From Escallonia rubra (Eukaryota; Streptophyta; Magnoliopsida; Escalloniales; Escalloniaceae): 64,000 bases of DNA. A program made the translations under genes and the position numbers. Where the stretch lies: assembly GCA_033065855.1 (NCBI GenBank), contig JAVXUO010002353.1, positions 62,001 to 126,000 on the forward strand, in the 5' to 3' direction. Below the pieces are notes generated by a model, which was not told the origin of the DNA, ran no database searches, and saw only the letters and a program-made list of their open reading frames with translations. Of this stretch, positions 4,591 through 42,424 are shown one piece after another (position 1 is the first letter of the stretch; every line of letters starts with the position of its first letter).

Positions 4591-4745
4591 AGATCCACCA
4601 ATCAATTACTTCCTCTTCAGTACAACTAGGAGCTTCAAAAATCAAAACTTCCACTTCCCCCTTTACAAAGTTTTGCTTCAAAAAGTTCAGAAAACAGAAG
4701 ACACTTTTGCTAGAGAGAAATGCTCTCTGCAACTCTCACTCACTC
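4591..4745 (+). repeat. Partial copy of the glycosyltransferase gene 5' leader
   Basis: This segment aligns with 8905-9085, just upstream of the glycosyltransferase start codon. Shared blocks in the same order include AGATCCACCAATCAATT, CCCCCTTTA, TTTTGCTTCAAAAAGT and CAACTCTCACTC. Beyond 4745 the similarity fades and no glycosyltransferase coding sequence follows. It is therefore a truncated duplicate of a promoter or 5' UTR. An open frame of about 119 codons across 4397-4756 has no domain and is best read as chance. Confidence 0.75.
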
Positions 4746-6461: not shown

Positions 6462-6611
6462 GGATCAGGATCCCCTGCTGTAACCATGGGTTACAGCAAG
6501 GGTGCTGTCCCCATTGTTGTGAGAGGGGGAAGAGAGCCTCTCTCTCTCTTCCCCCTCTCACAACAATGGGGACAGCACCCCTGCTGTGGTTACAGCAGGG
6601 AATCCTAATCC
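6462..6611. mobile_element. 150-bp foldback MITE, 9-bp TSD (MULE-type)
   Basis: The element starts GGATCAGGATCCCCTGCTG and its end is the reverse complement of GGATTAGGATTCCCTGCTG. It is flanked by the identical 9-bp direct repeat CAAGATTAA at 6453-6461 and 6612-6620. The two arms are almost fully complementary over about 65 bases, apart from a short extra segment in the left arm, and meet at a CT-rich centre near 6540. A 9-bp TSD is the hallmark of Mutator-like elements. A diverged relative lies at 62313-62440. Confidence 0.85.
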
Positions 6612-7039
6612 CAAGATTAATGATCTGGATCATCTAGAACTGTTAAATTTTCCTACCTCCCTTGATCTTCTTACGATCTCATCAGTCCCGTGATCTAACG
6701 ATTTTAAATAGTCGAGAGAGCTGTGATTCAGGACTGTCCGATATTTATACGATCTCATAGTGTTTAATTCTCCGAAGTATGCAATGAAACATTTGGGATA
6801 TACAAGGGGCCAAAGTGCCATGTGTACAGTAATGATTGCTTGTTTGCAGATCGTGCGATGCCATTGGTTTGAAAAGTGCGAAATAAATGAAAATAGTAGG
6901 AAGCACTGCCGCGCCACTAATATTTGACTTTTTTGGAGGCTTGGCTGGTTCAATTCGGCTCTCATCGGCTCGGCCCAGCGTAACACAATTGCGGCATTGT
7001 CGGATAGCCGTCCAGCCTGTCCTCGTGAAATTAGAATAA
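6612..7039. other. Intergenic between two MULE-type insertions
   Basis: No gene was recognised. The right end, TTAGAATAA at 7031-7039, is the left TSD of the Pack-MULE. Confidence 0.4.
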
Positions 7040-8167
7040 TGGCAAATTACACCTATGTCTCTGAAATTAGGATATAATTACAGTCAAAGACATTAAGTTT
7101 TAAAATGTAACATATCATGATCAAACACTTTTAAAATGTATCAGCCGTGTTCATCCGTCAGGGTTCCGTCCAAAAAATGTACTTTTTATGATGTCATCAA
7201 TATATATTTTTAAAATGACGATACTACCCCTTGTACTGTATATACTGAATATTTTTTAAAATTTTAAATTAAGATTTCAAGCCTTAATTTAAAGATTAGA
7301 GTTTTAAACCCTAAAATTGATTTGTTATCTATTTGTGCAGTCTATTTCATCAAAATTTCTCATTCTGCATCAAAACCCTAAGGGTCTCAATCTGCAAATT
7401 AGGGTTTTGAAACCTTAATTTGCAAGTTAGGGTTTTGTTTGCACACAGTGAAGGTCCTGTGCAGCAATGCCCCACCACAACTTCCTGCGCTCCCACCCCC
7501 TCTCCCCTCCGTCATCACCCTCAACTGCATCGAGGACACTGCCCTGGAGCAGGAATGCCTTGCCGGTGTCGAGCACGTCCCACTCAGCCGCCTGGCAGAG
7601 GCCAGGATCGAGTCTGCCGCCGTCCTCCTCTTCCACTCACTCACCTTTCTTCCCCGCGTCGCCCAGAGTCGCCTCCGCCCCTGGCAGCTGGTCCTCTTCC
7701 TCCGCCGGACTCATCTGCTCTCACGCCATCTCTCTTGCCAACCGGAGAAGTAAAACTAATAAGAGAAACCAGCGGGTAAGAGTGACGCATTGACACTAAT
7801 TTCTGGCCAGTAAAAGCAATCTGAACCCAAGGGCAACGAAACTCCAACGACTGACACTAATTTTCGGCGTCCCCTTCGTCCTGTTCGGCGATTCCTTCAT
7901 CTTCAGCATCGACGGTTCTCAGGCTGCCCCTCATCTCATCTCCCCTCAGTGGTGCCACTGTTGTCTGTGTGTGTCTGTAACGTTGAAAAGGAAGACATGG
8001 ACAAATCAAGAATTTCAATTTTATTTAGGAGCAATTCAGTCTTTTCGTCAAAATCGTTATGAATTTTTGTATTCCATCTGGTCAACGGACATAAGTGTAA
8101 TTTGTTCAAATTATTTTCCTTACCTGTAATTATACCATAATCTCAGGGACATAGGTGTAATTTGCCC
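7040..8167. mobile_element. Pack-MULE carrying an ANGUSTIFOLIA gene fragment
   Basis: A 1128-bp element bounded by terminal inverted repeats of about 45 bp: left (T)GGCAAATTACACCTATG, right the reverse complement of GGGCAAATTACACCTATG. It is flanked by the identical 9-bp TSD TTAGAATAA (7031-7039 and 8168-8176), which marks it as Mutator-like. No transposase was seen, so it is non-autonomous. The interior switches abruptly from AT-rich to GC-rich around 7440-7990. Part of that stretch is an acquired host gene fragment (7505-7745). A second GC-rich stretch at 7860-7970 could be another acquired piece but was not identified. Confidence 0.9.
7505..7745 (+). pseudogene. AN: Captured fragment of ANGUSTIFOLIA (CtBP-like)
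   Basis: The + strand encodes VITLNCIEDTALEQE, then HVPLSRLAEARIESAAVLL, FLPRVAQSRLRPWQLVL and directly RRTHLLSRH. This is the N-terminal signature of the plant C-terminal-binding-protein homologue ANGUSTIFOLIA, which acts in cell-shape control and at the Golgi/nucleus. From memory of the family, the roughly 40 residues that normally lie between QLIL and GLLRRTHLLSRH are missing. The captured copy is therefore internally deleted, or joins two exonic pieces. The frame is open through this stretch but stops soon after, near 7753. It lies inside the Pack-MULE, in GC-rich sequence unlike its surroundings. Confidence 0.85.
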
Positions 8168-9167
8168 TTAGAATAAACATATAGTGCAATATTCTTGACT
8201 TTTGATTTTATTCATTTATTTATAGTCAAAGAGGTTATACAGTCAAATGATAAATCACTGCAGTAAATCTTAAGGATCAATGAGTCACCAAATGGATTTA
8301 TAGTAATTACTATTTATCCTAAACAGACATACATTTATATCCTCAGCAAAAAAAAAATCGTTAATGCATCTTTAGTGACAAATAAGTGAGCATACGTCCT
8401 CACTTTAAAAAAATTCATTTATCACTTTACTCATTAATAACCCTACTCATATTTTACGGTCAATTAACGTGCAACATGCAAGTAAACATCTAAATCTACG
8501 TACAATAGAAAAAGTTTGAAAAGTCAAATGACAAAATGATAGTACCCAAGTGTAACTCTTTAGCATACAAACGTCTTTACTTTTGTATCCTCGCACGCTT
8601 TTCAACGCTTACCGTCCATTTTTGTCTTGGAGGCGAAAAATTTGTCACCGAAGCGCATCAGAGAGCGCTACGTAATGATTGTTAGCTGACACAAACATAT
8701 AACGTAGTTGAGAAATAGTGTAATATGATTATCAATTTCCTCAACTTTCTTTTGGTTTAATTGATTTTCTTCGTCCTTTTTACTGAATTGAAATATTGAA
8801 CCATGTCATGTCTTGGCTGTAGAGCTTCTACAGTGAACAAAGTTCTTGTCATGCTGCTACATTCTTGGTCTGACCAAAGCATTGAAGGAGCCAAGCTCAT
8901 ATGAAGATCCACCAATCAATTCTTTACTTCCTCTACAAAGGACAACCAGACACTTCAGAAATAAAAGCTTCCGCTCTCCCCCTTTATTACAGACTTTTGC
9001 TTCAAAAAGTCCAAAACACAAAGAACACTTTCATTTCTTCCCACTTTGCCGCCTCTCCCCCCACTGAAAAATGCAACTCTCACTCCTTCCGTCTTGCTAA
9101 ACGCCAACAAGGATGAAATCACCACCCCCACCACCACCAGAGAAGAAGATAAATCCCACAGGCAGCC
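8168..9167 (+). promoter_or_regulatory. Upstream region and 5' leader of the glycosyltransferase gene
   Basis: AT-rich from 8177 to about 8850, then a pyrimidine- and CAC-rich stretch (8905-9165) typical of a transcribed plant leader, ending at the start codon at 9168. The part 8905-9085 is duplicated at 4591-4745. No other gene was seen. Confidence 0.5.
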
Positions 9168-10484
9168 ATGGAAAGCGCCAAGAATTGCATTAGCTCCACC
9201 AGCCACCTCTTTCACCTCTTGAACAGGGCCAGCAGATCCCTCCTTGCGCTCCTCTCCCTCCTCCTGCTCCTTCTCCTGACCTACAATGCCGCGGAAATTT
9301 TCTGCACCCACTTCCCCCTTCCCGCCAAAACTTCACCGGAGCCCGCCAGTTTCTCGCCGGAAAGAGTTGCCGGAGAATCAAGGAAATGGGTACCCGTGGC
9401 TTCTTCCGTGATGTACGCAGTGAAAGAAGAGGGCCCGCCTGCAATCCCAAAGACCCACTTGCGCCTTTTGAGGAAATCCCACAGCTTCGAGGGTTTCGCT
9501 AACAATTCGTCGCCGAAGAAACGTCGGCGAAAGCGCAGGTATCCGTTCAAGATTCTCCGGCTCGAGCCGAAGCGGTTCTCAGCTAGAGTGAAAGAGTTCT
9601 TCGGTGAGAATTTGTCAAACTCTTCTTGTGAAGTTAGGTTCTTTATGACTTGGATTTCTTCATTGGAGTCATTTGGTGATAGGGAAGTTTTCACAATTGA
9701 GACTTTGTTCAAGTCACATCCAAATGGGTGCTTGGTAATCGTGTCGGATTCGCTAGATTCAAGGAGGGGGATGAGGATTTTAATGCCCTTTTTGGATAGA
9801 GGGTTCAGGGTGACTGCAATTTCACCTGATTTCAATTACTTGTTCAAGAAAACTTTCGCGGAATCTTGGTTTGAGAGGTTAAAGAGAGGCAATGTTGATC
9901 CGGGGGAGGTTTCATTAGGCCAAAACCTGTCAAATTTGCTTAGGCTGGCTCTGTTGTACAAGTTTGGGGGAGTTTATTTAGACACTGATGTTATAGTTCT
10001 GAGGAGTTTTGTGAACCTGACGAATTCGATTGGGGCACAGACTGTTGATCTGGAAACGAAGAATTGGAGCCGGCTGAACAATGCTGTAATGGTGTTTGAT
10101 AAAGGGCATCCTTTGCTTTACAAGTTTATTCAAGAATTTGCACTTACATTCAACGGGAACAAATGGGGTCATAATGGTCCTTACTTGGTTTCCAGGGTTG
10201 TTTCGAGGGTAAATGGAAGACCCGGATTTGATTTTAGTGTGTTGCCTCCAATGGCATTTTATCCGGTTGACTGGAGTAGAATCCATGGTCTATTTCGGGG
10301 GCCTAGGAATTCGACTGACTTAAAATGGTTGCTCGGTAAACTCAGGCAAATTCGCAGCCAGAGCTTTGCAGTACACCTTTGGAACAAGCAGAGTCGCGGC
10401 CTCGTGGCGGAAGATGGGAGCATCATTAGACGAATTATGGCGGATTGCTGTGTCTTCTGCAATTCTTCTGCACCAACTTTGTAA
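9168..10484 (+). CDS. GT32-type alpha-1,4-glycosyltransferase family protein, single exon
   Basis: This uninterrupted 438-residue frame encodes a type II Golgi-style glycosyltransferase. Residues about 22-45 form a leucine-rich transmembrane anchor. A lysine/arginine-rich stem near 117-125 follows. The catalytic region has LLRLALLYKFGGVYLDTDV with the metal/nucleotide-sugar-binding DXD motif (DTD, residues 272-274). The C-terminal part (NAVMVFDKGHPLLYKFIQEF, KWGHNGPYLVSRV, HLWNKQSR) matches the conserved C-terminus shared with lactosylceramide 4-alpha-galactosyltransferases. Plant members are annotated by this homology, and their acceptor substrates are mostly unproven. The start is the first ATG before the signal anchor. 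No lesions seen. The leader is partly duplicated 4.3 kb upstream. Confidence 0.92.
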   Translation: MESAKNCISSTSHLFHLLNRASRSLLALLSLLLLLLLTYNAAEIFCTHFPLPAKTSPEPASFSPERVAGESRKWVPVASSVMYAVKEEGPPAIPKTHLRLLRKSHSFEGFANNSSPKKRRRKRRYPFKILRLEPKRFSARVKEFFGENLSNSSCEVRFFMTWISSLESFGDREVFTIETLFKSHPNGCLVIVSDSLDSRRGMRILMPFLDRGFRVTAISPDFNYLFKKTFAESWFERLKRGNVDPGEVSLGQNLSNLLRLALLYKFGGVYLDTDVIVLRSFVNLTNSIGAQTVDLETKNWSRLNNAVMVFDKGHPLLYKFIQEFALTFNGNKWGHNGPYLVSRVVSRVNGRPGFDFSVLPPMAFYPVDWSRIHGLFRGPRNSTDLKWLLGKLRQIRSQSFAVHLWNKQSRGLVAEDGSIIRRIMADCCVFCNSSAPTL

Positions 10485-10770
10485 GTACAGAACAAAGAAC
10501 ACACAAGTTTATGCATTAGCTAATTGCATTTACTCTTAGTTTTTACGGCGTTGAAGTGTTGTTGTATGTGGTTATGGACCAACTCAGTCCATTCCACAAA
10601 GTCCGATCATGAAGAACATGTAAGATAATCTTTCCTTTAAGAGTTTTACACAGACTATAAATTTTATAGTTGAGAAAACAGATCAATCATTGGTGTTTAT
10701 TCCACTTGTATCAATATTAAATCTAGCAATTTTTAAGCATTTAGTTCCCTTGTCATCCTCTTCTGGTTTG
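10485..10770 (+). other. 3' flank of the glycosyltransferase gene
   Basis: Probable 3' UTR and downstream sequence. No separate feature seen. Confidence 0.4.
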
Positions 10771-10779
10771 GGCACCGAC

Positions 10780-11122
10780 CTATGTAACATGGACTCGTTC
10801 CGAGTGTCCGAGTCGAATACGTGTCCAAATGTTGGATTCGTCTAATTTCTAAAACCCAAAACACGGGGACACGACAAAGTGTTCCTATCTCTTGTTATTT
10901 TTCAGTTATTCCTTAGTTAACATGGTGTTTTATCTGGTGCATATTGTCCTACTTTAACACTTTTATCATCTTATAACAATAACAATCTAAAAGAAACATA
11001 TAAGATAATGCTTTTGATGGCATATTCTATGAAATGGGTCCGACACATATCCCATATGCATGTCTAAGTGTCGAGTACCCGACACGGGTACTTCATCATT
11101 TTTGAACAGTCCATGTAACATA
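10780..11122. mobile_element. Non-autonomous TIR element, about 343 bp, imperfect TSD
   Basis: The left end TATGTAACATGGACT is mirrored by the right end, whose reverse complement reads TATGTTACATGGACT. The flanks GGCACCGA (10771-10778) and GGCACCAA (11123-11130) match at 7 of 8 bases. This suggests a hAT-like 8-bp TSD, or a 9-bp TSD if one more base is included. The interior has CGTGTCC and GACACG motifs in both orientations. No coding capacity. Confidence 0.6.
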
Positions 11123-11131
11123 GGCACCAAC

Positions 11132-12743
11132 AGTAAAATTTGTCGTTCGTACCCGCATAATAAGCTTCCTATTCACTTGTGTGGTCAAATATACGACATG
11201 TGCTCGAATATACATTAATGCAAGGCACCTACTTTTTGGCCCATGAGGACCACAACTACATCATAATTCATGCTTTGCTGGGCTCTGTATCAGTAAGATA
11301 TATCATATATTTTGTTTTTAGTGATTAGTCTTCAGGAATCAGGAGTAGTTGCTCTAAACAAATTGCCAACAATTCTTCGTTTTGCTAGAGTGATTGGGGA
11401 TTATTTTTCTTTGTTATTTTAGGGGCTGTGTTAATTAAGCATAGACTAATATATGCAGAATGTAGCCAAAATCTTCTGGAGACAACAGAAACGTTGAATC
11501 TGGGTTATAGTTTATGACTGCGTCCAATTGATTTCACGTGATTCTGATGGCTCTTGAGAAGTCTTGGAAATGAAGTATCTGTGCTCCACCGGCCCTTGTT
11601 TATCTATGGATCAGTTGAAGCACCAACCTTTTGCCAAGTTACTGTCATCTTTGCATGAACTTGTGAAAGAAAGAGACATTTCCCTTTCCTTCCAAAACTC
11701 CGGAGAAGGATTAAGACACCTCTTCTCCGTGTTTATTGTTTGGTTCTTGTAGGTTGTAGGTCTGTCTGACAACATTGTAGTTTTTAGTATTGATTTCCTA
11801 AAAAATAAAAATAAAAATTAGTTATAGTTTTTATTTTTGTTTTTTTTAAAAAAAAAAAAAAAAAAAACTAGTAGATGTTTGATAGATCAGTTTTGGTTTT
11901 TGCCAATTTTTGCTTATTTTAAGAGGATTTTATTTTCCTTTATGGTCTTTATTTTCCAAAACGTAAGTTTCCATTATCACCAACCAACATCATAACGGCG
12001 GTGGCAACGACGGTGGGGTGGCGGCAGGTGAGGCGGTTCTGCCGGTGGCAACGACAGGATTATGACGGTAATGTAAGAGATCTGTTGCTGTAACAGCGTA
12101 TGGTGGTGGCGTTGGGACAAATCTGTGGTGGCGAGGCAGTGAGGTGATGAAGGTGGGGTGGATTGGGCTGCGAAAAGGGTGGTGAGTTGGTTTTCTGCTG
12201 GTGGTAGTGGTGGTGAAGGCTTAGAGGGTAAGTAGCGGTAGTGGTGAAAGTGATGAAATACAATGACTTCTTTAACATGTGTGAAGTTTGATGATTACAT
12301 CTCAAAACAAAAATCAAAACTCCAAAATGGAGTTTTCAAAAACAGTTTTGTTTTAAAAACTAGTTTTCAAAACTGAAGGGAATAAGAATGAAAAATGTCT
12401 GTCAAACGGAATTTTTTTCCTCAGTTTACAGAACAAGAGAAAATATTGAAAATAAAAACTCTGTCAGACACTACCATGATGTTCAATTTAAAGTTTTTGA
12501 GGATAATCACCTCTTGAGCAGTAGGGATCTTGCCCACCTAAGTTCTGCCACTGTGAGCAGTGGGCAAAAGTATTCTTCATGAGCAATTTCTATAACCAGA
12601 TGCTGGTGTGATTCAGGTGTTAGATTTGTCCAATCTTATTCACTTTGTACATTAGGCTGTCCTCCGTTTGTGTGCTACTCGCCTTGGCCGTGCTCAATAT
12701 GGTTGATGATGGGTGCACATGGACATGGTTACATGATCTGAAC
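11132..12743. other. Intergenic, no gene seen
   Basis: It contains an A homopolymer at about 11850-11868 and a G-rich repetitive patch at 11995-12235. Motifs TGTTTGATAGA near 11878 and the reverse complement of CCGTTTGACAGAC near 12395 hint at a further TIR element of about 0.5 kb, but the ends are too diverged to fix. Short open frames at 11564-11752 and 12060-12317 have no recognisable domain. Confidence 0.4.
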
Positions 12744-12986
12744 GAACAAACTTTGGCTGCTATTTAAGTTATAGGAATCTTCTTCCAACCCTGCATATAG
12801 TGACAATTAATAGTCGTTAAATATTTCTAATGACTTTTCTGTTAACACTTTTAACAATAATTCTTAGTAGCATTTTTTTAGCGTCACTAATTAAAAGTTA
12901 TTAGAAACATATAGCGACAATTAATTGTCGTATATGAGGGGTAAGAGAAAGATTTCTTCAACCTTAGTAGCAGTCAAATTTTTTCC
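12744..12986. mobile_element. 243-bp MITE, copy 1, 9-bp TSD
   Basis: The termini GAACAAACTTTGGCTGCTA and, in reverse complement, GGAAAAAATTTGACTGCTA form the inverted repeat. The flanks carry the identical 9-bp TSD GATCTGAAC (12735-12743 and 12987-12995), as for Mutator-like elements. The interior has short motifs such as TAGCGTCACTAA and GCGACAATTAATTGTCG. It is clearly homologous along its length to the 244-bp element at 55146-55389. Confidence 0.88.
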
Positions 12987-12995
12987 GATCTGAAC

Positions 12996-13676
12996 AAGGC
13001 GTGTATGCTCCATGCCAGGCCTAGATGTTTAATCGCCTTGTATTTTTAGATTTTGATGGTGCTTCTGAAACATTTCGTGACTCAGACAAGATGTCATTCA
13101 TCTTAAAATTCCTAACGCTTAAAGGATACACTAGGGGTCAGCAAATCAAGCGTGGAGGTTCAATTAAATTACTTGGCATTCATAGCTAAGCAAGTAGAAC
13201 CTTCATGAGCCATCCTTATCTTTATGTTGTGATGGTTTCCAGAAATGCATGTGGCCTTTATGTGCTTTCGTTTTCGGCATTTATCTGTTCAGCATTTCCA
13301 CTTTTACATTGAAACTGACTCCATTGTTGTGTGTAATTCAACCAGATACTGGTCGCGTCTTATATGAAAACGGAATGATTGATCTTTGATCTCTAACCTG
13401 AAAAAGTTAACCTAAGAGAATATTTGTCTTGATCCCACATCTCTAATGCAGTGAACATTTACACCAGAAATTACAGCAGGCAGAGATAGTCTCCACCTAT
13501 TCCTTTGCCAAAGAAGAACAACTTTTCAAACATGTCAACATCAATTTGTGGTCACAAATCATGCTAAGAGCCTGTGACCCAATTGCTATGAGTAAGATAT
13601 GGTTAAGTAATGCAGTATGCATGAACAGGAAAATATCTCCGGTGGTCCTTTGGCCAAGTTGTATCTGGGATTGATT
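12996..13676. other. Intergenic, no gene seen
   Basis: Average-composition sequence with no recognisable exon, TIR or tandem repeat. Confidence 0.4.
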
Positions 13677-13895
13677 TTTCTTTTTTTAGTTGGACGATAA
13701 GGGATATCCTCGGGTTAGCTTTAGCGTCAATCAAAACTAAGTCTCCTCCCCGGACGATTTTAAAGGCGCACCCCCCACATCGGCCTGGTGCATTCAGAAG
13801 AATTTTTTTCTCTGGGTACTGGCCCCAAGGCTTGAACTCAGGAAATCAAGGTAAGGAATATACTTTCTTGACCACCTGGCTAACCCGTTGGGGTT
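13677..13895 (-). mobile_element. tRNA-derived SINE
   Basis: Read on the minus strand, the element begins near 13895 (CAACCCCAACGGG). It has a pol III A-box-like TAGCCAGGTGG (13872-13882) and, about 30 bases on, a B-box-like GAGTTCAAGCC (13829-13839). It ends in an A-rich tail (CTAAAAAAAGAAAAA, seen as T-rich at 13677-13691 on the + strand). Spacing and tail fit a plant tRNA-derived SINE of about 220 bp. Its head directly abuts the CACTA element that begins at 13899. Confidence 0.7.
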
Positions 13896-14488
13896 GATCA
13901 CTACAAGGAATAAGGCTTTTAGCGACGGGAAAATCCGTCGCTAAAAGCCTATATTCCGTCGCTAAAAGATTTAGCGACGGAACACCCGTCGCTAAAAATC
14001 CCTCGTATAAAAGGCCGTTACTAAAAGTTTTGCGACGGAATTATAAAATTCGTCGTCTAATATAGAAAGTTTGGCGACGGATTTATTTCTAAATTAGCGA
14101 CGGAATATCCGTCGCTAATTATGTTTACGTTTTTTTTATTTATTTCCTTTTTTAAGAAAATTAGCGACGGATAAAACTTTTAGCGATAGAATTAATCCGT
14201 CGCTTAAAGTCATTTTTTTTAACTTTTTTTTAATTTTTTAATTCCTAAACCTGTAATAAAAAACTCAAACCAATTGGGTCTCATCCTCCGTCAACAATCT
14301 CAATATTTCAAACGCACGATTAACAATCTAAAATCATCAATTAACAACCTAAAATTATCGATCAATAATCACAATTAACAACCTAAAATTATCAAACAAA
14401 TAGTCAATGTTCAAATAACACAAAATTGTTCAAAATTTACATATCCGATGCGATTAATTTAAAATATTGTCTAATTACTGCTCAGAGT

Positions 14489-14934
14489 TCAACATTGGGG
14501 GAAAGCAATTTTTTCACAAGTGCTATGATCAAACACCAGCACTTGAAAACGCATTTGCCCCATGTGTTCAAAGATTACAAAGTCTCCTAGATAAAGGTCA
14601 TGCTGCTGCACGAATTCGTTCCAACCCTCTTCGAAGCAAAGTTCCTCTTGGCCAACCTTCTTCTTCAATTTAACAGGCCATGACCCCTTGCGGCTGGTTA
14701 AAGTTGCTTCAAATCTCAATGTGGTAAGCAATCTGCAAAATGCTACCGGTATGGCCTAACATATTCATAATACAATAAGACATGTAAGTTTTTAACCAAC
14801 GATAAAAATTTTAACACGCACGAAAACACAGAGAAAGCGAGATGACATACAAGTTCTGCATGAAAACCAGGCATCATGACCTTGAAGAAGTGCCTGCCGA
14901 CTGAAACATCCATGTTCACCGAAGCAGAAGCCAT
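14489..14934 (-). CDS. Captured B3 DNA-binding domain gene (REM-like), two exons, open
   Basis: The gene lies wholly inside the CACTA element. Exon 1 (14851-14934) encodes MASASVNMDVSVGRHFFKV and continues to FHAEL, with a GTATGT donor. Exon 2 begins after an AG at 14756 and runs 14489-14755: IPVAFCRLLTTL, SRKGSWPVKLKKK, ELCFEEGWNEFVQQHDL, GDFVIFEH, FDHSTCEK. Together they form a complete B3 fold of about 116 residues, with no frame break, ending in a stop shortly after the domain. Known REM-type proteins carry further domains, so this is a single-domain, microprotein-sized version. Whether it is expressed cannot be seen. The open frame may reflect recent capture, or selection. Confidence 0.8.
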
Positions 14935-15353
14935 TTAACCTACTTTAACATGAAAAACCAATCGGGCATTATTCAATTGATGAGCATCAATTTTATAGCT
15001 GAATTAAATCTATTACTGCAAAGTCTCCTAGATAGCTATTGCATTACTGCAAAAATGGGAAATGTAATCTAAGAGAATGCATAGTTCAAATTCTATTATT
15101 TCCCTTTCTGTAGCTTACATGGTGGGGGACTACATGAGCATTGACTCTAAAACCAGGAGATGACCATCTATCTAATAAAACCACCAACAAATCTAATAAC
15201 TATATCCAGATCACTATTGACAAATGAACGCTCAAATATTCAGATCTTGTATCTTTACTACAACCTACACAAAGGCATACATTATTTAGTATTCCATACA
15301 AAAGGAACAAATGCTCATCTTATGACGCTCAAATATTCAGCAACAAGGTTGGG

Positions 15354-15470
15354 GTGGTCGAAACGTGGCTGAGGAAGCACCGTCTGGTCTTCACCGGAGC
15401 CACCAGACACCCTTTTACCCTCAGCATCCGGGATGGCACTGTTGACTTCAAATCCTTCAAGAAATGGCTG
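15354..15470 (+). pseudogene. Captured first exon of a TENA/THI-4 family gene
   Basis: The + strand encodes [18 protein letters not shown] followed by [20 protein letters not shown], then a GTAAAG donor at 15471. This matches the N-terminus of plant TENA_E-type proteins (aminopyrimidine aminohydrolase, thiamin salvage). From family knowledge, the next exon should begin with the GQDYLFVR segment, and it is not present. The upstream bases (GTTGGGGTGGTCGAAACG) keep the frame but show no obvious initiator ATG in that frame. It is a fragment within the CACTA element and not a functional enzyme gene. Confidence 0.8.
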
Positions 15471-15479
15471 GTAAAGTTT

Positions 15480-17592
15480 TCCGGTCACATTCACCATTTA
15501 CTGTTAATTTCTGTTTTTCTTAACAGCGCTCAGAAATCCTAATCATCTAAGACTATACTGCGTTCTCTTATTTCAATTGTAAATGAAACATCTGGTTTGA
15601 CTTTTCAACTTAATGAGTGGGTAGTCTATGTTTGAGGAACAACTGATCAAAGAGCTTAAGCTTAAGCCATTAGACTTGAGAACGAGCGTAACGAAACAAT
15701 GTTTATTATGCTAATTAGATCAAGTAAAATTTTATTCATAGTACCAGTACAACTTGCCACTAATGGGACTTATATATAGTATGTAGGAAAAAAATGATAA
15801 CAGATAAGTAATACGGAGTAAAAGATAACGTAAGGAACTAATCTAGCTTATCATTATCTTTTAACTTCCTTAATCCAGATTAATAAGCCTTGTCCCACAT
15901 GTTCTGATATTGCTTTAACACTCCCCTCCTCGTGTATGACCCTTTCCCTTGATTGCAATTTGCATATGGAGAGACAGAGATATGAAGGTGTCTCGACCCA
16001 GTGCACAGACAACATCGTGAAGAACCTAAGAGAGATATATAAATGGGGCCGAATGCAAGTGGGAAGTAAGAGTGTAATCGAAGACCGTGCTCACGAGCTC
16101 ATATCATGATAAGTTATCATTTGCTTTGAAAGTTTAAGTTACAGATATGAAACAATGTAGTAGCAGGTTATAACTAGCTTAAGTGTTGCAATGATGAGAT
16201 CGCATGGTTCAAGAAAGAAGCTTTTTGGCTGTGCACGGGCTAGGCTTATTTGAGGCTGGAGCTCAGCATTCGCCTAAAGCTCAAAAAGTTATGTCGAAGT
16301 TGACCTCGAGGATGTGTTCATTGGAGTTTTTAGGACACCATATCAATTTGTCCAGGCTCCTCGTTTTAAAAAGAGTCCAAGTTGAGGTCTTTGTGTGAGC
16401 TTGACTCCTTTAACAAGTGAATCGCAACATAGTAAGGGATTCGTGTGTGTGTGAAACGAGTGGGCCTACGTAAGGAGTATATATATGAACACTACAACTT
16501 TGTTCAAGCTGCCCGGCTTATTTACTAGATGAAGTCCGGTGCATTTGTTAATTGAAACAGCACAAATGAGCCATGAACGTGCCGATCAGCATGGCCTACT
16601 GTCAACTTTGAGGTTATATGCATAACTGAATGAGCAAAATGATATTATATCTGCAATTGTGAAGATGAAATTTCAATTAGGTTTCCTATTGTTGTAAAGA
16701 ACCTTCACATTTAGGCGCAAGTCTCAACTCAAATTTAAGGTTGCTGTTTTTCCTTTGCAATTATTCAAGTGGTGAACCATGAGAGCTCATAGATACTAAG
16801 CCTTCTTGAACAAAAAGCATCAGTTGGAAAAGAGGTTGGCTCCTCGGTTGTGATTCTGAGTTTTTGGTCAATAATGATACTTACTATTACAATGCAGGGA
16901 CAGGATTATATTTTTGTTAGAGCATTTGTTCCTTGGTGCCTTCTGATGCCCATTTTAGCAACCAAAATGGGTGCAATTTTTTAGTTCTCTTAGTTTTTTT
17001 TTTGGTCTAGTTCTCTTTAGTTTGAATAGCTTAACAAGGTAAATATCCCAGTGATTATATCTGGTTCCCCTTCAATATCACAATACATTTTCTTTTCTTT
17101 TTGGGTTGAGGCTACTTGGGGCTAACTTCTATAATGGGAGATTAGCCATTCCCTGTCGGTGCTCTTGCAGGTTAAAGACTTTACATGAACTTTGTTGCCG
17201 AACCCTTTAAGAAGTGTCATTCAAGAGACTTAGAAAGATTTACGTCCCAAGTTCGATGTCAAAAAGGGACGAACGACTCTATAACAATAATTTTTACATT
17301 GAGTCGTTGCTACAAATCTTTTAGCAACAATCATCACCCCTGTTATCGATTTCTAAAAATTCCTCATCAGACTAACAATTTGATCCTAAGAGCATAAGCT
17401 AATACGGAGTAGATCACTACACGTTACAATCATAAGAAACACAAAGAATATGTATAAATGTTGCACAAGAATTGAATAAATAAGACTAAACGGAACTTAC
17501 CTTAAGGCACAATAGCCGGCGGCAGTGGAGGGCGGCGTCGTCAGTGGCGCGACGACGGTGGTAGTCTTTTCACGCGGCGGCAGTGGAGGGAG
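15480..17592. other. Internal filler of the CACTA element
   Basis: No transposase or host domain was recognised in this 2.1-kb part of the element. It is AT-rich, and TATA-like and CACTCCCC-containing sequence near 15760-15960 recalls retrotransposon LTR DNA without defined ends. Confidence 0.4.
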
Positions 17593-17682
17593 GGGTCACC
17601 GTGTAGGGGGATCGCCGAAAGTGGGTCACCGTGTAGGGGGATCGCCGGAAGTGGGTCACCGTGGAGGTTGGTCGCCGGAGCA
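17593..17682 (+). repeat. Three 30-bp tandem repeats in the CACTA element
   Basis: GGGTCACCGTGTAGGGGGAT and the following GCCGAAAGT-type bases repeat three times with a 30-bp period (starts 17593, 17623, 17653), the last copy diverged. An open frame reads through them as Gly/His/Ser-rich sequence, but no known domain is present. Confidence 0.8.
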
Positions 17683-18107
17683 GAACATCGGTGGGAGATT
17701 TTTCAGATAGAGAAACGGGGGAAGAGAAAGAAAGGCAGATCTGGTTGATTTAATCGAGGACTTTTAGCGACGGATTGGGCCCGTCGCTAAAAGTTCGTCG
17801 GTAAATCACGATATCTATCGACGGTAGTTTTGGCAACGGATTCCTTCCATCCCTAAAACAATTTTATAAAACCCTCGAAAAAATTAATTTTATAAAAACG
17901 TTTTAGCGACGGTAATTTCGTCGCTAAAAGACCGCTGCAAAAAAATTGTCGGCAACAACTTTCGCCGACGGTAACTTCGTTGGTAATAAGTTTTTAACGA
18001 CGGAATTTTACCGACGGTGGTATCCGTCGGTTAAACTCATTTTTACCGACAGATTGTTATCCGTCGGTAAAACTCCGTCGCTAAAAACGTGTTTTTTTGT
18101 AGTGGAT

Positions 18108-18475
18108 GCTACAAAAGTGTAGCATCTACCTTTAGCTCTAGAGGGGTTCTGTTATTCTTATGCTTTCACTTAATTTTTGATACTAACTATCATGTCCAAA
18201 TGGCATGTCTAAAATCATCACAATGCCAAAAACAGAAAGGTTACAGATAACAGCCACTAGACTTCAGTTATTACCAATCCCATTTGGTTTACTTTCCGGA
18301 ATTAGAGAATCATGTTCTTCCATTCTCCCCTATCCGCAAGCATTCTCTGCTAAGATTGCTCGAGTCTGAAGTTTCGATGGCAATCTTGCACTTCAAAATT
18401 TGTCCCTCGGCTTAGTTTATGGTGCGTTCTTTCTTCTTTTTCCTTGCATAGCAGTGGGATTACCAGTAAATACCT
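18108..18475. other. Short spacer between two transposons
   Basis: It begins with the right part of a perfect 9-bp inverted repeat, GATGCTACA/TGTAGCATC (18105-18126), touching the CACTA end. No gene seen. Confidence 0.5.
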
Positions 18476-19395
18476 AAACTTTCGTCGTTTATTTTAGTCC
18501 TCTGAACTATTCCCGCTTTTTTATTTTGGTCCCTGTACTTTAAAATCCGTTAAATCAGTCAATGTACTTTGTGCCGTCATCAAATAGATCCCTCCGTTGG
18601 GATTTCCTATCAAAAAAGACCACGTGACAGACACATGGTCTTTTTTGAAGGGTATTTCTGGCAAGCGAAGACAAATGGAGAATCCAAGGTCCATGCCCAC
18701 GACCCTGATCCGGTACGAGAACCAGAAGCGCCGGGACTGGAACATGTTCGGGCAGTACCTGCGCAACCACCGGTCGCCGCTCTCCCTCGCCCGCTGCAGC
18801 GGCGCCCACGTCCTCGAGTTCCTCCGCTACCTCAACCAGTTCGGCCACCCTTTCCCCACCCGCTAAGGTCCATGCCCAACCCTACCCTTTCTTCGGCCAC
18901 CCTTCCCCACCCGCCCCCTGCCCCTGCCCCCTCTGCCAGGCCTGGGGCAGCCTCGATGCCCTCATCGGTCTCCTCTGCGCCGCCTTTGAGGAGAACGAAG
19001 GCCACCCCAAGTCGAACCCGTTCGGGGCGCTGCCGTCCGATTTTACCTCCGCAAAATCCGTGATTCACAGTCCAAAGCACGGGGGATCAGCTATGAGAAG
19101 AAGAAGCGACACCCACCCTATTACTCTTCTGATCTCGGCCGTTCGTTTCAAGAACCCTTCCGATCTTGGCGATGGCTGCCGGAGCGACCAGATAAACCAG
19201 TAGCTTGCTGGAAATACCCTTCAAAAAACGACCCCGTGCCTGTCACGTGGTCTCTTTTGACGGGAAATCCCAACGGAGGGTTCTATTTGATGACGGAACA
19301 AAGTACGAGGATTGAGTTAACGGATTTTAAAATACAGGGACCAAAATAAAAAAGCGGGGATAGTTCAGGGGACTAAAATAATATTAACCCTTTAT
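18476..19395. mobile_element. Long-TIR element carrying an ALOG/LSH gene copy
   Basis: Inverted repeats of about 190 bp, roughly 18476-18666 and 19203-19394, share blocks such as TTTTTTATTTTGGTCCCTGTA, trimmed here to TTTTGGTCCCTGTA, plus CCGTTGGGATTTCC and GAAGGGTATTTC. The exact termini and TSD could not be fixed, so the superfamily is open; long TIRs with acquired gene sequence fit a Pack-MULE best. The interior (18695-19110) is GC-rich host gene sequence. Confidence 0.75.
18695..19110 (+). pseudogene. Captured ALOG-domain (LSH family) gene copy, frame broken
   Basis: The first half encodes [39 protein letters not shown] and [10 protein letters not shown], the N-terminal ALOG domain of LIGHT-SENSITIVE SHORT HYPOCOTYL proteins, plant-specific DNA-binding developmental regulators. 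A stop codon follows at about 18864 (PTR then TAA). The second half continues in another frame: [45 protein letters not shown], and near the end [13 protein letters not shown]. Order and content match a near-complete ALOG domain with at least two frame lesions. Lying between long inverted repeats, it is an acquired, decayed copy. Confidence 0.88.
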
Positions 19396-19514: not shown

Positions 19515-20259
19515 TAGGGATGGCAATGGGGCAGGTCGGATGCGGGTTTCACAAAATCCGCACCCGCCCCGCCATGCCAAATATGCAGCCTCGCCCCGCC
19601 TTGCACTTCCATTTTAAAGATTAAAAGTACAAATTTAGAGAACTCATCCGGCGACGGATCTATTACCGGCGACAGATCTGTGACCGCGGAGGAGTGGGGA
19701 TTCGCCGGTGGATGGACCAAGATCAACAATCGGCGTTCGTGGACAGTGGTTGTCCGGTCTCCGGACAGATTTGCTTTTAGATTTTCATCAAGGACATGGT
19801 TAGGAGGTGCGTGGGAAGGAAACGACGGAAGGCCGATGAACCGAACGGCGAACAACAGATGAATGGCGACGGCAAAAGGCGAACGGCGATGGCAAAAGGT
19901 GACAGAAGGCGAAGCAAGTTCGTGACGTGCTTGGGGTCACCGGTCGACTGCGTACCTACTTGGGAGTGCGGCGGCTGTAGGAGAAGAAGGGAAGGGGAAT
20001 GGGGAGAAAGGAGGCTAGGGTTTTTTCAATAGTTAATATAAATGGAGTATGGACGGTTGAGATTAAACCTTGATCAAGGTATAAAGGGGAGCGGGGCGGG
20101 GCGGTGACACTGAAAATCATACCCGCCCCGTATCCGCTGCGGGTTTTAAAAATAAATACCAAATCCGCCCCATGACCCTGTTATAGTTAAAAAAATCCGC
20201 TCCTATAGGAGTGGGGTGGGGCGGATATCTGCCGGGTGCGGGTTGAATTGCCATCCTTA
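19515..20259. mobile_element. Non-autonomous hAT element, 745 bp, 8-bp TSD
   Basis: It begins TAGGGATGGCAATGGGG and ends with the reverse complement of TAAGGATGGCAATTC. It is flanked by the identical 8-bp TSD AACACAAC (19507-19514 and 20260-20267), the hAT signature. Subterminal regions are rich in GCGGG/CCCGC motifs in both orientations. No transposase domain was seen, and the open frames inside do not look like host genes. Confidence 0.9.
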
Positions 20260-25437: not shown

Positions 25438-28400
25438 ATGCCAGCCGAAGTATCAAACGGCGTCGCGCCTGGCATAATCCCGTACGCAAACGGCGTCGTG
25501 ACGCCTCGGGACTCCACGGCCGCAACCGCCGGGAAGAAATCGCGAGAGAGCGAGCGCCGCCGCAGGCGGCGGAAGCAGAAGAAGAGCAACCGATCGTCAC
25601 AGTCGGCTACGGACGCAGACGACAGCGATACCGCCGCCGAAGACGGCGACGATAACGCCAAGGAGAACTCCAACCCTCAGATTGTGCGTACAGTTATCTA
25701 TTCGATCGATTTTTAGGAGTTTCAGTTTTGTGCTTTTGTTTTGTCTAGATCTATATTATCACGTGTGCGGTGGATTGGTAATTGTTTGCTTGATCTGGTG
25801 GTATGTGAGTAATTAATCGAATGAGATCGACCTGGAAGCTAATTTAGGGTTTTGTATTTATGTACATTTCTTTGACTTGTGTGGTTAATTCGTGATTTTT
25901 TGCTTGGTTTTGGGGTTTTTTTTGGGTAAACTAGTGGACTTAGATTGGTATATAGGCTACTTGTGTGAATGAGCTTGGTTTATTTAAGGGTAGAAGGATT
26001 AGGGCTTGCTAGTGACCATTTTGCCCTCCGGCTTGTGTTGTGGTGCTGTGCCATTTTGTTTTCTCTTGACATCTTTTGAGTGTTTTGATGATACACTTTG
26101 ACTTGACCCGTTTGATTTGTTTTAGTTTGACATGTGATGGTCGATTGATGCCCACTTTTTAACCGAGTTGCCAGGTGTAAAATTTCCAGAATAGTTTATT
26201 TTTTTTCAAGTATCTATGAGCGGATTCAGTCTTTCTTTCCATTTCTACCTATAGTAAAGATAGGCGGATGGAACGACATATCACAGCCATGTTATCAAAC
26301 GTTATTGCTCCCTGTGCCTGACATGTACTGATTCTGTATACTGGCCTATAGTTGAGAGCGTCTTAAAACTTGAAGCGAGCAATTATGAATACTGTCTGTA
26401 GAAGTAATGCCAAGTTTGTCTTTGTGCAAATTTGAGTGTCAATGAATACTGTCTATAGAAGGACATTACAATGCAAGATTTTCCGTTGTAGTGTCATTTT
26501 TTAGCATATTAATTTTTATTTCAAATCATCTCTATATAGTTTAAAGCTGTTTTAAACGTCTCATCGAATTCGGTACTATATGTTTGCCATGTAAGCTACT
26601 AATCTCGTTGCATAGATCTTATTATGTTTTTCTGCTTGTTTGGAAGGCTTTGGAGCAAGTTGTAGTGGAGTATGTCCCAGAAAAGGCAGATCTAGATGGT
26701 GACTTAGATGAGGAATTCAGGAAGGTCTTTGAGAAGTTTAATTTTAAAGAGAGTGCTGATTCTGAGGTAGAAACTGCTTTGTGTTGACAATCTACTGATG
26801 TCCATAACTTTGTCATTCACATGTTGATTTATTTTTTGCCTTTTAAATTCTCATAGGAGAAGGATAAGAAGGATGAGGATGCCCTAAATGCAGCCTCTAA
26901 GAAAGCCAACTCAGATTCAGAGGAGGAAGAACAGGATGTCCAACAAAAGGATAAAGGCGGGATTTCTAATAAAAAGAAAAAGGTTCTACCCTACCCTCGT
27001 ACTTTTTTGCAGTCCATGTATCATTTTTTTTTTATTCGTTATTGATGATTGTTGATGACAATTACAACCTTGATGTTCTTGTTATTTGGTCCTTCTTGGG
27101 AACTTGTAAGGCTAATAGAATTACATTTTCTTCCAGCTGCAGCGCCGAATGAAGATAGCTGAACTGAAACAGATCTCCTCAAGGCCTGACGTAGTTGAGG
27201 TAAGGTTTGCCTGTGATTGATTTCTGTATTTTCCTTGTTTTTTAGTTTATTCACACATTTCTCTCTACCGTGTCTTATAGTATTAACAGTTAATTACGCG
27301 GTTGACCACTGTACAATTAGGCAAAATTCACTTTGGTCACTGAACATCGATTTGTGTCAAAGATGCCACTAAAGTTTGAAATTTGTTTCAATCTGGCCAC
27401 TCTGTTAAATTAAGTTAATTTCAGTCCGTTTATTTAGGGGTAAAATTGTCAATTCACTGTTCACCTTCTTCCTTCTTCTTCACACACACACACACACAGT
27501 AGCTTGATACCATCATTATGGAGTGTTTGGCCTCCAAACTAAATAGCTATAAACTTCAAAAATTCCAGGAACCCATTTCTGGATGCTTGCAATTCTTGGT
27601 TCTTGTGCGCAAACAAGAACCCATTTTGAGCTTCTTGGTTGTTTTCAGGTAATTATGCCACAAAACCCTTCTTCATTAATCAACCCAAAGGCTGATTTAA
27701 CTCACCCAAAATTCAGTTAACAAGAACATTGGATCTTTCCCCGTAAAACTTGAACTTGTGCATTTGTTGAAATTTGGTCTTTGCAGGTCATGGAGAGAGA
27801 GAAAGGAGAAGCAAAGTAAAAAGTGGAAGATTATGAAGTGATTGAGCAGATTGGGATGGGTGATTCAATCTAAATTAACTTGCAAAGACCAAATTTCTCC
27901 ATATTTGAACAGATTGGATCTTTTGAAGTAGCAAATTTCAACATTAGGGTTCTTCATATTTGAGCAGAGGGTTCTTCGTAAAAAGACCAATATAGCCTTG
28001 AGTAACCTAACGAGTCAAGCTTAATTTGACTGATTGGCCAGATTGAAACAAATTTCAAAGTTTAGTGGCCACTTTGACACAAATCGATGTCAAGTGACCA
28101 AAGTGAAATTTACCTAATAGTACAATGGTCAACGCGTAGTTAACTCTATTATTAACAGACAAGTACCTTCCGCAGGCAATTGCAATTTTTTCACCTGCTC
28201 TAAATATGAAATTATTGACTTTATTGAAGATAATCGAGTCATATGCAACCTTTTGCGGGCAATTGCAATTTTTTCACCTGCCTAAATATGAAATTATTAA
28301 CTTTATCAAAGATAATCTAGTCATATGCAATTGTTTTGTGCAGTGACCTGCCAGTCTGCCATAGCATGTGAATATAGCAACTTGAGCTTGTTAATTAGAT

Positions 28401-37248: not shown

Positions 37249-38033
37249 AAGCGTGAACAAAACATGCTAACTAAAGCTCGTGTGTGCACCTATCATGCAA
37301 AGCGACTTCAGAGCCTAGGAGCAGGCGCCACCATGGGATGGAGCTTCAGCCGAATCTCTGCAAAAAAATGGACAAAATACATCAGATGTCAAATACAAAG
37401 TCATGGAGAGAAAATTCTTAATTCAGATCCTAAATACCCATCATCCTCTTGAGTCCTCTTCCAAATGAACCAACAAACGAAAATCAGGATCAATCAGAGC
37501 GAAGGATCCTGCTCCTGCTCTATTGATGTTCTTCCTATACAGGGTTGACTAATAAAGGAAAGAGCCTACAAGTGAAAAACGAACTCGAACTCATCCCATT
37601 TATATGTGCCAAACTAGCTAGGTGCATCAACCTGGTAACCATAAAGCACAAAACTTAACAGGTAATTGAGCCTGAGTGCCATGCAGATGGTCTAATGCAG
37701 TTCACCCCATTGGCAAAGACACAGAGAATGCAGAAATAGTCTGGGCTAAGGTTGTGCACGCCTCGTAAAATTCCTCACAAGACAGAATATTTAAGGAAAA
37801 AAAAGCAAAAATTGCTTCGCGAACCAAGCCAACACGTACGGATGATTTGAAATTACCTAGATATGTAGTACAACTTCAGCCAACAATCAACAGATATAAT
37901 TGCCGTAATGTTTCAAGAATTCTGTTGGGCGAAAACTAAGTTGTTACCTAACTGGGTATATAAGATATGTCAAGCAAAGACAAGAAGAGATTAATTGGCA
38001 AGAGACAGAAGCTATAGCAGAGTTTTTTGTACT

Positions 38034-39104
38034 TTACATTATCATGCAGCTTCCAGGCTGTAGGTTGCCCGGAAAACGGCCATGGCGCCTGAAAATTCTC
38101 CCCAATTTAGCTTCACCTCCACCAGGCTTGGCAGATGAGGACGAATCTCGAGGTGGGAGCTTATAAACAGAAAAAGGAACGAAACCGACCTTGCTAGCAT
38201 CCCTAAAAACAACCACGCAGAGCTTATGATCGTGTAACTGAAACAGGAAGACATTCGGATAATACAAGCGACCAAAGCTTAAAAAGATTGCCTCTAAGCC
38301 CCATTTCATTTGGTGAGGGTCCTCTATGCGAAGGTCCAGCTTATGCACAACCACGTAACTCTTTCGTAGATACTCATGGTAGCGCTTCGTAATATAGAAA
38401 ATGTTTCCCACAATAAGCGACCGCGAATCCCAACAAAAAGGCCTGAGGTTGTCCACAACTGGGTCGTCAGCCGGGTGATCAGTCCACCACGGGTGGACGC
38501 TCCACTTTTTGGTTGAGAGATTGAAAGCGAACAGCCCATGGTCCTGCCGCTTGACAAACAACGTTTTCGCTCCGGGATGATAAATGTGCACTGGCCTGTA
38601 GGGATAACAATGCATAGGCGGTTCTTCCTCCAACCGACTCCATCGTTCACGCGCGGGATCGTACTCTTCAAACACCGCCCACCCATGAAGCGACGTTAAA
38701 TGTTCCAGCGAGTAACTGTGAGCGCTTTCTCCAGGAAGAGCATAGACCTTACCCTCGATTACGGCAACTAGAGGGAAGGGCTTTGGGCCGAGCAGATCGG
38801 GGCCGTCACGCCACGTCCTGCTGCGCAGATCGTACACGCGCATCTTCAATGGATAGGTAAGCTCGCCGTTGGCGGTCTCGATCAAGTCGCCGCCGAAGAA
38901 ATAGATCCTGGATCCGAGGGCCACGCGGCCTATCCTGCCTTCCACCTGGGGGTCGGGGAACAGGTAATCGACGACGTGGTATGCGGAAGCGTCGATCAAG
39001 TTGAGGGCGAAAACGTGGATGACGCCCTGCTCTTCCGTGAAGAAGATCGATGTCTCCCCCCATTTTTCCCAATCCTGAGGCAACGACGGAGGAAGATTTT
39101 TCAT
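38034..39104 (-). CDS. Kelch-repeat protein, copy 1 (356 aa)
   Basis: A single-exon protein expected to fold as a partial or complete kelch beta-propeller. Kelch-like units are visible: GRIGRVALGSRIYFFGGD with VYDLRSRTWRDGPDLL (residues about 56-105), then VAVIEGKVYALPGE with EEYDPARERWSRLEEEPPM (about 108-165), then LFAFNLSTKKWSVHPWW and WDSRSLIVGNIFYI. Plant proteins of this type are often F-box/kelch adaptors, but no F-box precedes the repeats here. The protein starts at MKNLPPSLPQDWEKWG. It is a tandem duplicate of the gene at 42425-43525, and an inverted fragment lies at 36531-36635. Function unknown; protein interaction by the propeller is the family inference. No frame lesions. Confidence 0.82.
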   Translation of the reverse strand: MKNLPPSLPQDWEKWGETSIFFTEEQGVIHVFALNLIDASAYHVVDYLFPDPQVEGRIGRVALGSRIYFFGGDLIETANGELTYPLKMRVYDLRSRTWRDGPDLLGPKPFPLVAVIEGKVYALPGESAHSYSLEHLTSLHGWAVFEEYDPARERWSRLEEEPPMHCYPYRPVHIYHPGAKTLFVKRQDHGLFAFNLSTKKWSVHPWWTDHPADDPVVDNLRPFCWDSRSLIVGNIFYITKRYHEYLRKSYVVVHKLDLRIEDPHQMKWGLEAIFLSFGRLYYPNVFLFQLHDHKLCVVVFRDASKVGFVPFSVYKLPPRDSSSSAKPGGGEAKLGRIFRRHGRFPGNLQPGSCMIM

Positions 39105-39120
39105 GTCTATCTCCGTAGAA

Positions 39121-39892
39121 GTCTGTCAAGCCATGCCAAGCAAAACCAAAAGTCCAAAAAAAAAAAAACCAACACCATCCACAATATTGAAAAGACGAAT
39201 ACACGCTGGTGTCTCCTCCCTCCTCCACCGCATAGCCGCTCTCGGGTCCCCCCTCCACCGCCTCGGCCAATCCCTCCACCAATTTCCACCAACAGGCAAT
39301 AATTTTCACCATGAATGCACCTCCACACTTACCATTACCAAATCTGGCATCATCACTACTAACTAAGAGAAATTGAAATCCTAAAAAAACCTAAGAATGT
39401 TTAATTGTAAATTGGGTTGAAAATCTGATGGCGGCACCGAATTAGTGATGGTGGGGGGTTGGCGAGGTTAATGATTGCGTTGATGTTAGGAGGTTAGACG
39501 TCGGGGTTGGCCGGGGCGTTGGGAGTTGGCGGGTGGACGGTAATAGATGTGAGCGGTGGTGAGTCGACTATGATGGTGGTGGTAATTGGGGTAGTTACGG
39601 TATTGTGGTCCTGTGTTATGGCGGCGAAGAAAGAAAAGAGGAAAGGAAAGAGCGAGTGGTGAGGCATGCAGCGATGTTGGGAGGTGGGTAATGATTGAGT
39701 TGATGGGACGTTAGGGGTGGCGATGGTGAGGAATTGGCGGGGTGGGTGGTTTGTTAGTACGTAGGAGTGTTGGTGGGTGCCTGTCGTGTGATCATTTTAG
39801 ACTGAAAAAAGGTACATAGATTAGGTTCGACGATTTTGAAAGATAGGGACCAAAAATTCAAAAATATAGGTAAAATACAAGGGACTGAAGTG
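39121..39892. other. Upstream of kelch copy 1, GC-rich non-coding patch
   Basis: An A homopolymer (about 39158-39169) is followed by C-rich sequence to 39300, then a G-rich patch (39425-39790) with many GGTGG and GTTGG repeats that reads like decayed repeat DNA. No recognised gene. Confidence 0.4.
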
Positions 39893-41746: not shown

Positions 41747-42424
41747 ATCCTTGCAGAAAGCATTCAGCAAACATCTTTTGTGTCCCTAAAATATGACTGA
41801 ACATCTTAGTACTACATTTCTTTTTCCAGGTCCAAGTATCAGTTAAAAAGTCCAAGCAGGGACAAAAGTGAACAAAACATGCTAACTGAAGGCCGTGTGT
41901 GCACCTATTACGCAAAGCGACTTCAGAGCCTAAGAGCAGGCGCCAGCATGGAATGGAGCTTCACCCGAATCTCTGCAAAAAATTGGACAAAATACATTAG
42001 ATGTCAAAGACATATACAATGTCGTCACGAGAAAATACTTAATTCTGATCCTAAATACCCATCATCCTCAGATGGTCTACTGCAGCTCAGTCCACTGGCA
42101 AAGCCACAGAGAACGCAGAAATTGCTTCGCAAACAAGCCAACACGGATGATTTGAAATTATCTAGAGATGTAGTATAACCTCAGCCAACAAGCAACGGAT
42201 ACTACTCATCTTTAAGAGGGACTTAACGCAGTGATGCAGGAGTACATAGAGTTATATAATTGCTGTAATGTTTGACGAATTGTGTCCGACGAGAACTAAG
42301 TTGTTACCTAACTTGGTAAATAAGATATGTCAAGCAAAGCCAGAGAAGAGACTCGCAAGAGATTCTATTTCTCCTTGACAAGCGTAAAAACAGAAGCTAC
42401 AGCAGAGTAAAGTTTTTTTGTACT

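Follow-up and report, generated by a model that had tools for sequence, protein, structure and literature searches.

Pack-MULEs of rice and maize combine the terminal inverted repeats (TIRs) of Mutator-like elements (MULEs) with 9-bp target-site duplications (TSDs), captured 5' pieces of genes and GC-rich cargo. CACTA transposons carry host sequence as well: Tpn1 elements of Ipomoea nil, with 339 copies catalogued, are non-autonomous CACTA elements with conserved ends, 3-bp TSDs and internal regions replaced by captured host sequence (PMC5105172); Pack-TYPE elements include non-autonomous CACTA elements with coding-DNA cargo, most of which are low-copy in maize and rice (PMC8903248); and Tgm-Express1 of soybean is a CACTA element that brought five unrelated host gene fragments, with working splice sites, into F3H in a single insertion (PMC1947982). 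Here, we compare with these systems a stretch of 64,000 nucleotides from Escallonia rubra (C3177:62001-126000; hereafter the window, whose positions are used throughout unless another contig is named), in which an initial annotation saw a 12-kb island of gene-carrying transposons. Its three members are E1, with an ANGUSTIFOLIA-like piece; E2, a CACTA element with a B3-domain gene and pieces of a TENA gene; and E3, a long-TIR element with an ALOG/LSH domain (Table 1).

The explanation that we favor and consider likely is that three unrelated non-autonomous gene-carrying DNA transposons inserted independently, already loaded, around an ordinary host gene, and that the CACTA element had obtained its cargo through break repair that copied an unlinked gene. 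Three families are involved: a Pack-MULE with the ANGUSTIFOLIA (AN) piece, a B3-CACTA family with exchangeable cargo, and a MULE-type family with ALOG. As far as the published descriptions go, the B3-CACTA family is like Tpn1 in being non-autonomous, in its conserved ends and exchanged internal regions, and in its 3-bp TSD, a likeness between descriptions rather than a letter-by-letter match of the ends, which in Tpn1 comprise a 28-bp TIR and subterminal repeats; it differs in having a B3 gene constantly present in the left arm. E2 also shares non-autonomy and coding-DNA cargo with the Pack-TYPE CACTA elements, most of them reported as low-copy in maize and rice, whereas the B3 module is found at 373 places; templated filler and a near-identical donor, moreover, make the capture in E2 readable. 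Like the reported Tgm-Express1, the family carries several unrelated host gene fragments, but in Tgm-Express1 five fragments sit in one insertion, while in the B3-CACTA family the cargo differs between members.

What is constant in this family, and what is exchanged? The genome searched comprises 566 Mb in 3222 contigs, in which a 46-mer from the B3 region, allowing at most three mismatches, occurs at 373 places (reversed control: 0). Sixteen family loci, found through that region (so that elements without B3 would be missed), were read as 10-kb stretches. Both CACTA ends were found in 12 of these loci, 11 of which have equal 3-bp TSDs; all 16 have the B3-bearing left arm in common, and 15 share the right arm at least in part. 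Between the arms, the whole middle is exchanged for 1.1-2.2 kb of other DNA in seven loci (L029, L030, L031, L033-L036), with left breaks at 15281-15311 and right breaks at 17355-17492; it is exchanged in part in L039-L042 and L044. The middle of L033 consists of SDH1 exons (1.3e-37); that of L034 and L036 is a possible GDSL lipase (Pfam 0.014, below the cut-off), for which PDB gave no match to a lipase, and the remaining exchanged middles have no assigned gene. Thus, ends and B3 module are constant and the middle has been replaced repeatedly. In E2 itself, the B3 open reading frame (ORF) is complete, with one GT-AG intron; units of the TTTTAGCGACGG type, possibly the subterminal repeats that TnpA binds in CACTA elements, are repeated near both ends; and no transposase domain was found in 39 of its 44 six-frame ORFs (one of them scanned in part). 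Its cargo is more than the single TENA exon first proposed alongside the B3 gene: the joined exon 1 and exon 2 pieces match PDB 2f2g at 1.5e-21, and therefore parts of two exons are present.

Where did the TENA cargo come from? A TENA profile search, with 14 candidates scored, found one gene, on contig C1718, through two exon matches, and a 43-mer from exon 1 occurs at nine places, namely this gene and eight elements. Identity to the C1718 gene is 99.1-100% in seven loci, the window included, and in one other copy it is 222/222. We read the C1718 gene as the donor; its sequence is still almost identical to the cargo, which thus appears to have been gained recently. The left junction is preserved in an earlier form in one relative, L041, whose donor match begins 246 bp farther upstream than that of the window copy, takes in the start codon and runs at 99.4% over 319 bp. 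(L041 was later rearranged; the donor match ends inside exon 1, and 3.4 kb of other DNA follows it.) Filler separates the captured tract from the old left arm in L041, and it includes 16 bp of donor exon 2 in inverted orientation as well as a direct 23-bp copy of the element's own sequence, starting at 15228. The inverted 16 bp come from the very part of exon 2 where, in the window copy, the captured tract stops. The window form would have arisen from the L041 form by a deletion between two CAG triplets; other deletion junctions in the family have overlaps of 3 bp (L040, L042), 1 bp (L044), 0 (L030) and 4 bp, GACT (L043). Exact repeats of at least 15 bp number six within E2 (14300-17700), including four that are close and tandem-like; in a first-order Markov control with 200 resamplings, the mean was 0.02 repeats of at least 14 bp, and none reached 16 bp.

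The filler, at this one capture junction, suggests that interrupted gap repair with template switching made the TENA junction. In this model, (i) a break would occur within a CACTA element; (ii) it would be repaired by copying from an unlinked gene; (iii) strand switches would return the copying to donor and element sequence; and (iv) the patched element would move on and multiply. What we infer is the break, what caused it, and the copying; the families, their constant ends, the donor identity and the filler can be read in the genome.

Turning to the two flanking elements, E1 is a Pack-MULE, as first annotated: it has MULE TIRs, a perfect TSD and an AN-like piece, the plus-strand frame from 7467 being what we take to be the first exon of AN. 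Neither Pfam nor PDB gave a match for this piece, and no transposase domain was found in the five of 15 ORFs scanned or in the AN frame. Contig C1007 (L057) carries the same exon intact, as an open frame of 211 amino acids without stops whose translation continues through the segment absent from E1; we read this exon (exon 1 only was compared) as the donor. Identity to it is 84% over 264 columns for E1 and 83-90% among the eight copies aligned, the window included. All eight share the same internal join, which argues that AN capture or the deletion happened once, before amplification. At the best of nine end offsets, TSDs agree at eight or more of nine positions in seven of the eight copies (L004 has 6/9, and the match in L005 is almost entirely A). 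AN-like sequence occurs at 36 places besides the C1007 gene.

E3 is probably a second Pack-MULE. The ALOG/LSH domain reported for it stood up: its halves lie in two frames, with Pfam matches of 1.1e-20 and 7.9e-20, and the frames joined with X match residues 3-129 of a 129-residue LSH3 domain chain at 2e-65. The window copy has no convincing TSD, only two of nine positions agreeing outside the family-type ends, with offsets around both arms tried; a 9/9 candidate, TTTATTTTA, lies inside the left arm and was rejected as an artefact. For the family, 40 of 578 candidates were scored, and ALOG and TIR matches occur together on 39 contigs, the window included; identity is 75-89% in the longer matches, and most start at window position 18491. 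Four copies were read for TSDs, giving 9/9 (L061), 8/9 (L058) and 7/9 (L059, L060). The last three have common flanks and were counted as one insertion; they may represent a duplicated insertion or duplicated contigs. These TSDs mark the family as MULE-like. Elsewhere in the genome there are intact ALOG frames, e.g., on C1582, C915 and C1655; the last is a candidate donor (88% over query positions 256-669, with no TIR match among the matches listed). On C1826 (66402-67587), an intact ALOG frame of 219 amino acids has E3-type TIRs on both sides, possibly a functional gene on a MULE-like element. Many other ALOG profile matches cover only model positions ~58-122, often in long open frames, and may represent a different repeated protein family. 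E1 and E3 thus resemble the Pack-MULEs of rice and maize: E1 in its TIRs, 9-bp TSD and 5' gene piece, and both in GC-rich cargo (0.64 in E1 and 0.62 in E3, vs. 0.385 for the window). They differ only in the identity of the cargo, AN and ALOG; nothing structural was found to differ.

If E1, E2 and E3 belong to separate families, why do they lie together? That elements of at least two superfamilies captured genes, as originally suggested, is borne out by MULE and CACTA. All three are copies of families dispersed through the same genome, and their cargoes were thus not acquired at this site. The interval is likewise no unit, for an intact glycosyltransferase gene lies inside it, between E1 and E2, with a sugar transporter gene adjoining. 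Sequences that we read as donors were found for TENA (C1718) and AN (C1007), a candidate only for ALOG (C1655), and none for B3, for which no protein search was made. Co-location elsewhere was assessed from 36 places with AN-like sequence (not each demonstrated to belong to an element; this list omits the C1007 gene and three repeat rows for places already counted), 40 ALOG places hand-picked as element-borne from 122 profile rows, and the first 100 of the 373 B3 places. Outside the window, pairs no more than 50 kb apart numbered 0 for AN-ALOG, 0 for AN-B3 and 1 for ALOG-B3 (C253), and uniform placement predicts 0.25, 0.64 and 0.71, respectively. With E5, a MULE-like element outside the interval, taken as a fourth carrier, three of four start this close in 27% of random placements. 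We read the cluster as a coincidence in a genome rich in gene-carrying elements.

Could the cargo of the CACTA family have been gained differently? Fusion of neighboring copies, in which adjacent insertions with complementary terminal deletions enclose the DNA between them, is a published model for Arabidopsis Pack-CACTA, as recounted in PMC13317346, and would also yield constant ends with new middles. It predicts a simple collinear stretch between two insertions, however, and the filler at the TENA junction includes an inverted copy taken from the opposite end of the captured segment, plus a copy of element sequence. The inverted filler is what fusion does not explain, and we consider this route unlikely as the source of the CACTA cargo. 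A separate question is whether B3 is a passenger at all. It lies in the constant arm of all 16 loci read, its consensus ORF is open (116 amino acids, with a GT-AG intron) and 19 of the 32 distinct copies retain it intact, all of which might point to an element-encoded helper protein kept by the family rather than passive cargo. Selection on the ORF, tested among the 32 distinct sequences obtained from 40 copies, was not found: synonymous, nonsynonymous and stop changes number 25/60/6, against 23.5/62.4/5.1 expected for neutral copies, and distinct changes per base amount to 0.26 in coding and 0.14 in noncoding sequence, i.e., coding changes are no rarer. Furthermore, the search through the B3 region would select for members that have it. 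A helper is therefore improbable. B3 copies diverge from the consensus by 1.05% on average, and C-to-T and G-to-A changes in them occur most often at CG and CHG sites, a pattern that would be expected for methylated copies. We give little credence to an extended scenario in which the family is a cargo-exchange platform, sampling exons at a high rate by template-switch repair into unlinked genes, with B3 as helper or anti-silencing factor and with small RNAs from its near-identical TENA copies acting on the only TENA gene found.

As for the locus, it could be an insertion-tolerant or preferred spot on which gene-carrying elements accumulate, much as the nesting ground first imagined. Five TIR elements (E1-E5) were resolved within 21 kb, and the uniform expectation of the exact AN-ALOG-B3 triple is only ~0.001 genome-wide, a figure chosen post hoc. 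Yet an intact gene lies inside, E1-E4 stand side by side rather than nested, the spacing of three of the four carriers is unexceptional (p=0.27), and the lists examined reveal no excess of pairs elsewhere (0, 0 and 1 within 50 kb); on balance, such a spot is rather unlikely, and a nesting ground does not fit cargoes captured elsewhere by dispersed families. That the interval is an ordinary host gene cluster with incidental repeats is scarcely credible: apart from the intact glycosyltransferase gene within it and the neighboring sugar transporter gene, nothing speaks for this, and against it stand exact TSDs, copies dispersed over the genome, and reading frames that are broken or truncated. Independent insertion of loaded elements, with repair-based capture in the CACTA family, remains our preferred explanation, and several points weigh against it: the low expectation for the exact triple; the filler argument, which stands on one capture junction; ~42 bp of the L041 filler, for which no source was found; a 31-bp “filler” in L043, rejected because it proved to be element sequence that follows a tandem duplication of 12 bp and so lends no support to templated filler; positions 15560-16843 of E2, an intron part with no match to the donor intron stretch compared (782397-782650); the B3 donor, which was not found, no protein search aimed at it having been made, as 373 copies would swamp it; and the family “copies”, some of which may be allelic or duplicated contigs.

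Table 1. Features of the gene-carrying elements and the host gene between them (window positions).
Feature	Position	Strand	Basis
E1, non-autonomous MULE (Pack-MULE)	7040..8167		TIR arms 63 nt, 83% complementary; TSD 9/9
E1 TSD TTAGAATAA	left 7031..7039, right 8168-8176		9/9 identical
ANGUSTIFOLIA-like 5' piece, ATG 7467, internal deletion	7452..7728	+	84% to C1007 (L057) exon
Alpha-1,4-glycosyltransferase-like gene, intact, host	9171..10484	+	Pfam Gb3_synth 1.6e-27
E2, non-autonomous CACTA (Pack-CACTA), 4206 bp	13899..18104		CACTACAA ends; TSD GAT 3/3
B3-domain gene: exon 1 14851-14934, intron 14756-14850, exon 2 14489-14755	14489..14934	-	Pfam 9.1e-13; PDB 1yel/VRN1
Filler: 16 bp of donor TENA exon 2, inverted	15301..15316	-	16/16 to donor (L063)
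Filler: 16-bp copy of element sequence 15228-15243	15325..15340	+	23 bp in relative L041
TENA tract: exon 1 (to 15470), intron 1 (start)	15338..15559	+	221/222 to donor C1718
TENA tract: intron 1 (end), exon 2 (5' part, from 16898)	16844..16934	+	89/91 to donor
E3, long-TIR, MULE-like family	18456..19390		arms 18489-18666 / 19203-19381, 179 columns, 89%
ALOG/LSH domain; a frameshifting insertion and one further frameshift break it	18687..19112	+	Pfam, PDB
E4, hAT-like, non-autonomous	19515..20259		TSD AACACAAC 8/8; cargo without assignment
E5, MULE-like, outside the claimed interval	27287..28146		TIR 127 nt, 89%; TSD 8/9; cargo uncertain

E4 starts 124 bp past E3 and is GC-rich internally (0.52-0.53). 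E5 contains EDYEVIEQIG, which resembles the start of a NEK kinase; the Pfam scan of five of its seven ORFs gave no match (five of ten ORFs were scanned in E4, and E3 was covered in part). Elements of fold-back type, or like miniature inverted-repeat transposable elements, lie at 6462-6611 and 12744-12986; the second is 80% similar to 55146-55389, so there are two copies in the window. In the 5' flank of the glycosyltransferase gene, 8905-9031 is 78% similar to 4591-4707, 4.3 kb upstream, perhaps a trace of a lost tandem duplicate. Farther downstream, 37894-39130 and 42254-43551 are tandem duplicates (86% identical) of a long open frame, which we assume, by impression only, to be kelch/F-box-like.

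Capture through repair has been proposed in plants before. The mechanism of Rubin and Levy is said to be abortive gap repair. A report of gene fragments in Chenopodium CACTA elements points to a mechanism described by Rubin and Levy (PMC8978399); gap filling with template switching was supported in animals in 2021, where a role for plant Pack-MULEs is called worth exploring (PMC8277862); and another report leaves the capture mechanism for unlinked genes open (PMC13317346). A limited literature search yielded no paper on a Pack-MULE with ANGUSTIFOLIA or a CACTA element with a captured B3 domain. For annotation, these elements advise caution, as captured pieces could be mistaken for genes or pseudogenes. 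The B3-CACTA family resembles the Tpn1 type; what stands out is a capture that is unusually readable. With a donor that is 99-100% identical, the earlier form of the capture kept by L041, subsequent forms carrying small deletions, and sister copies in the hundreds, of which some hold other cargo, the family is well suited to a test of how transposons capture genes.

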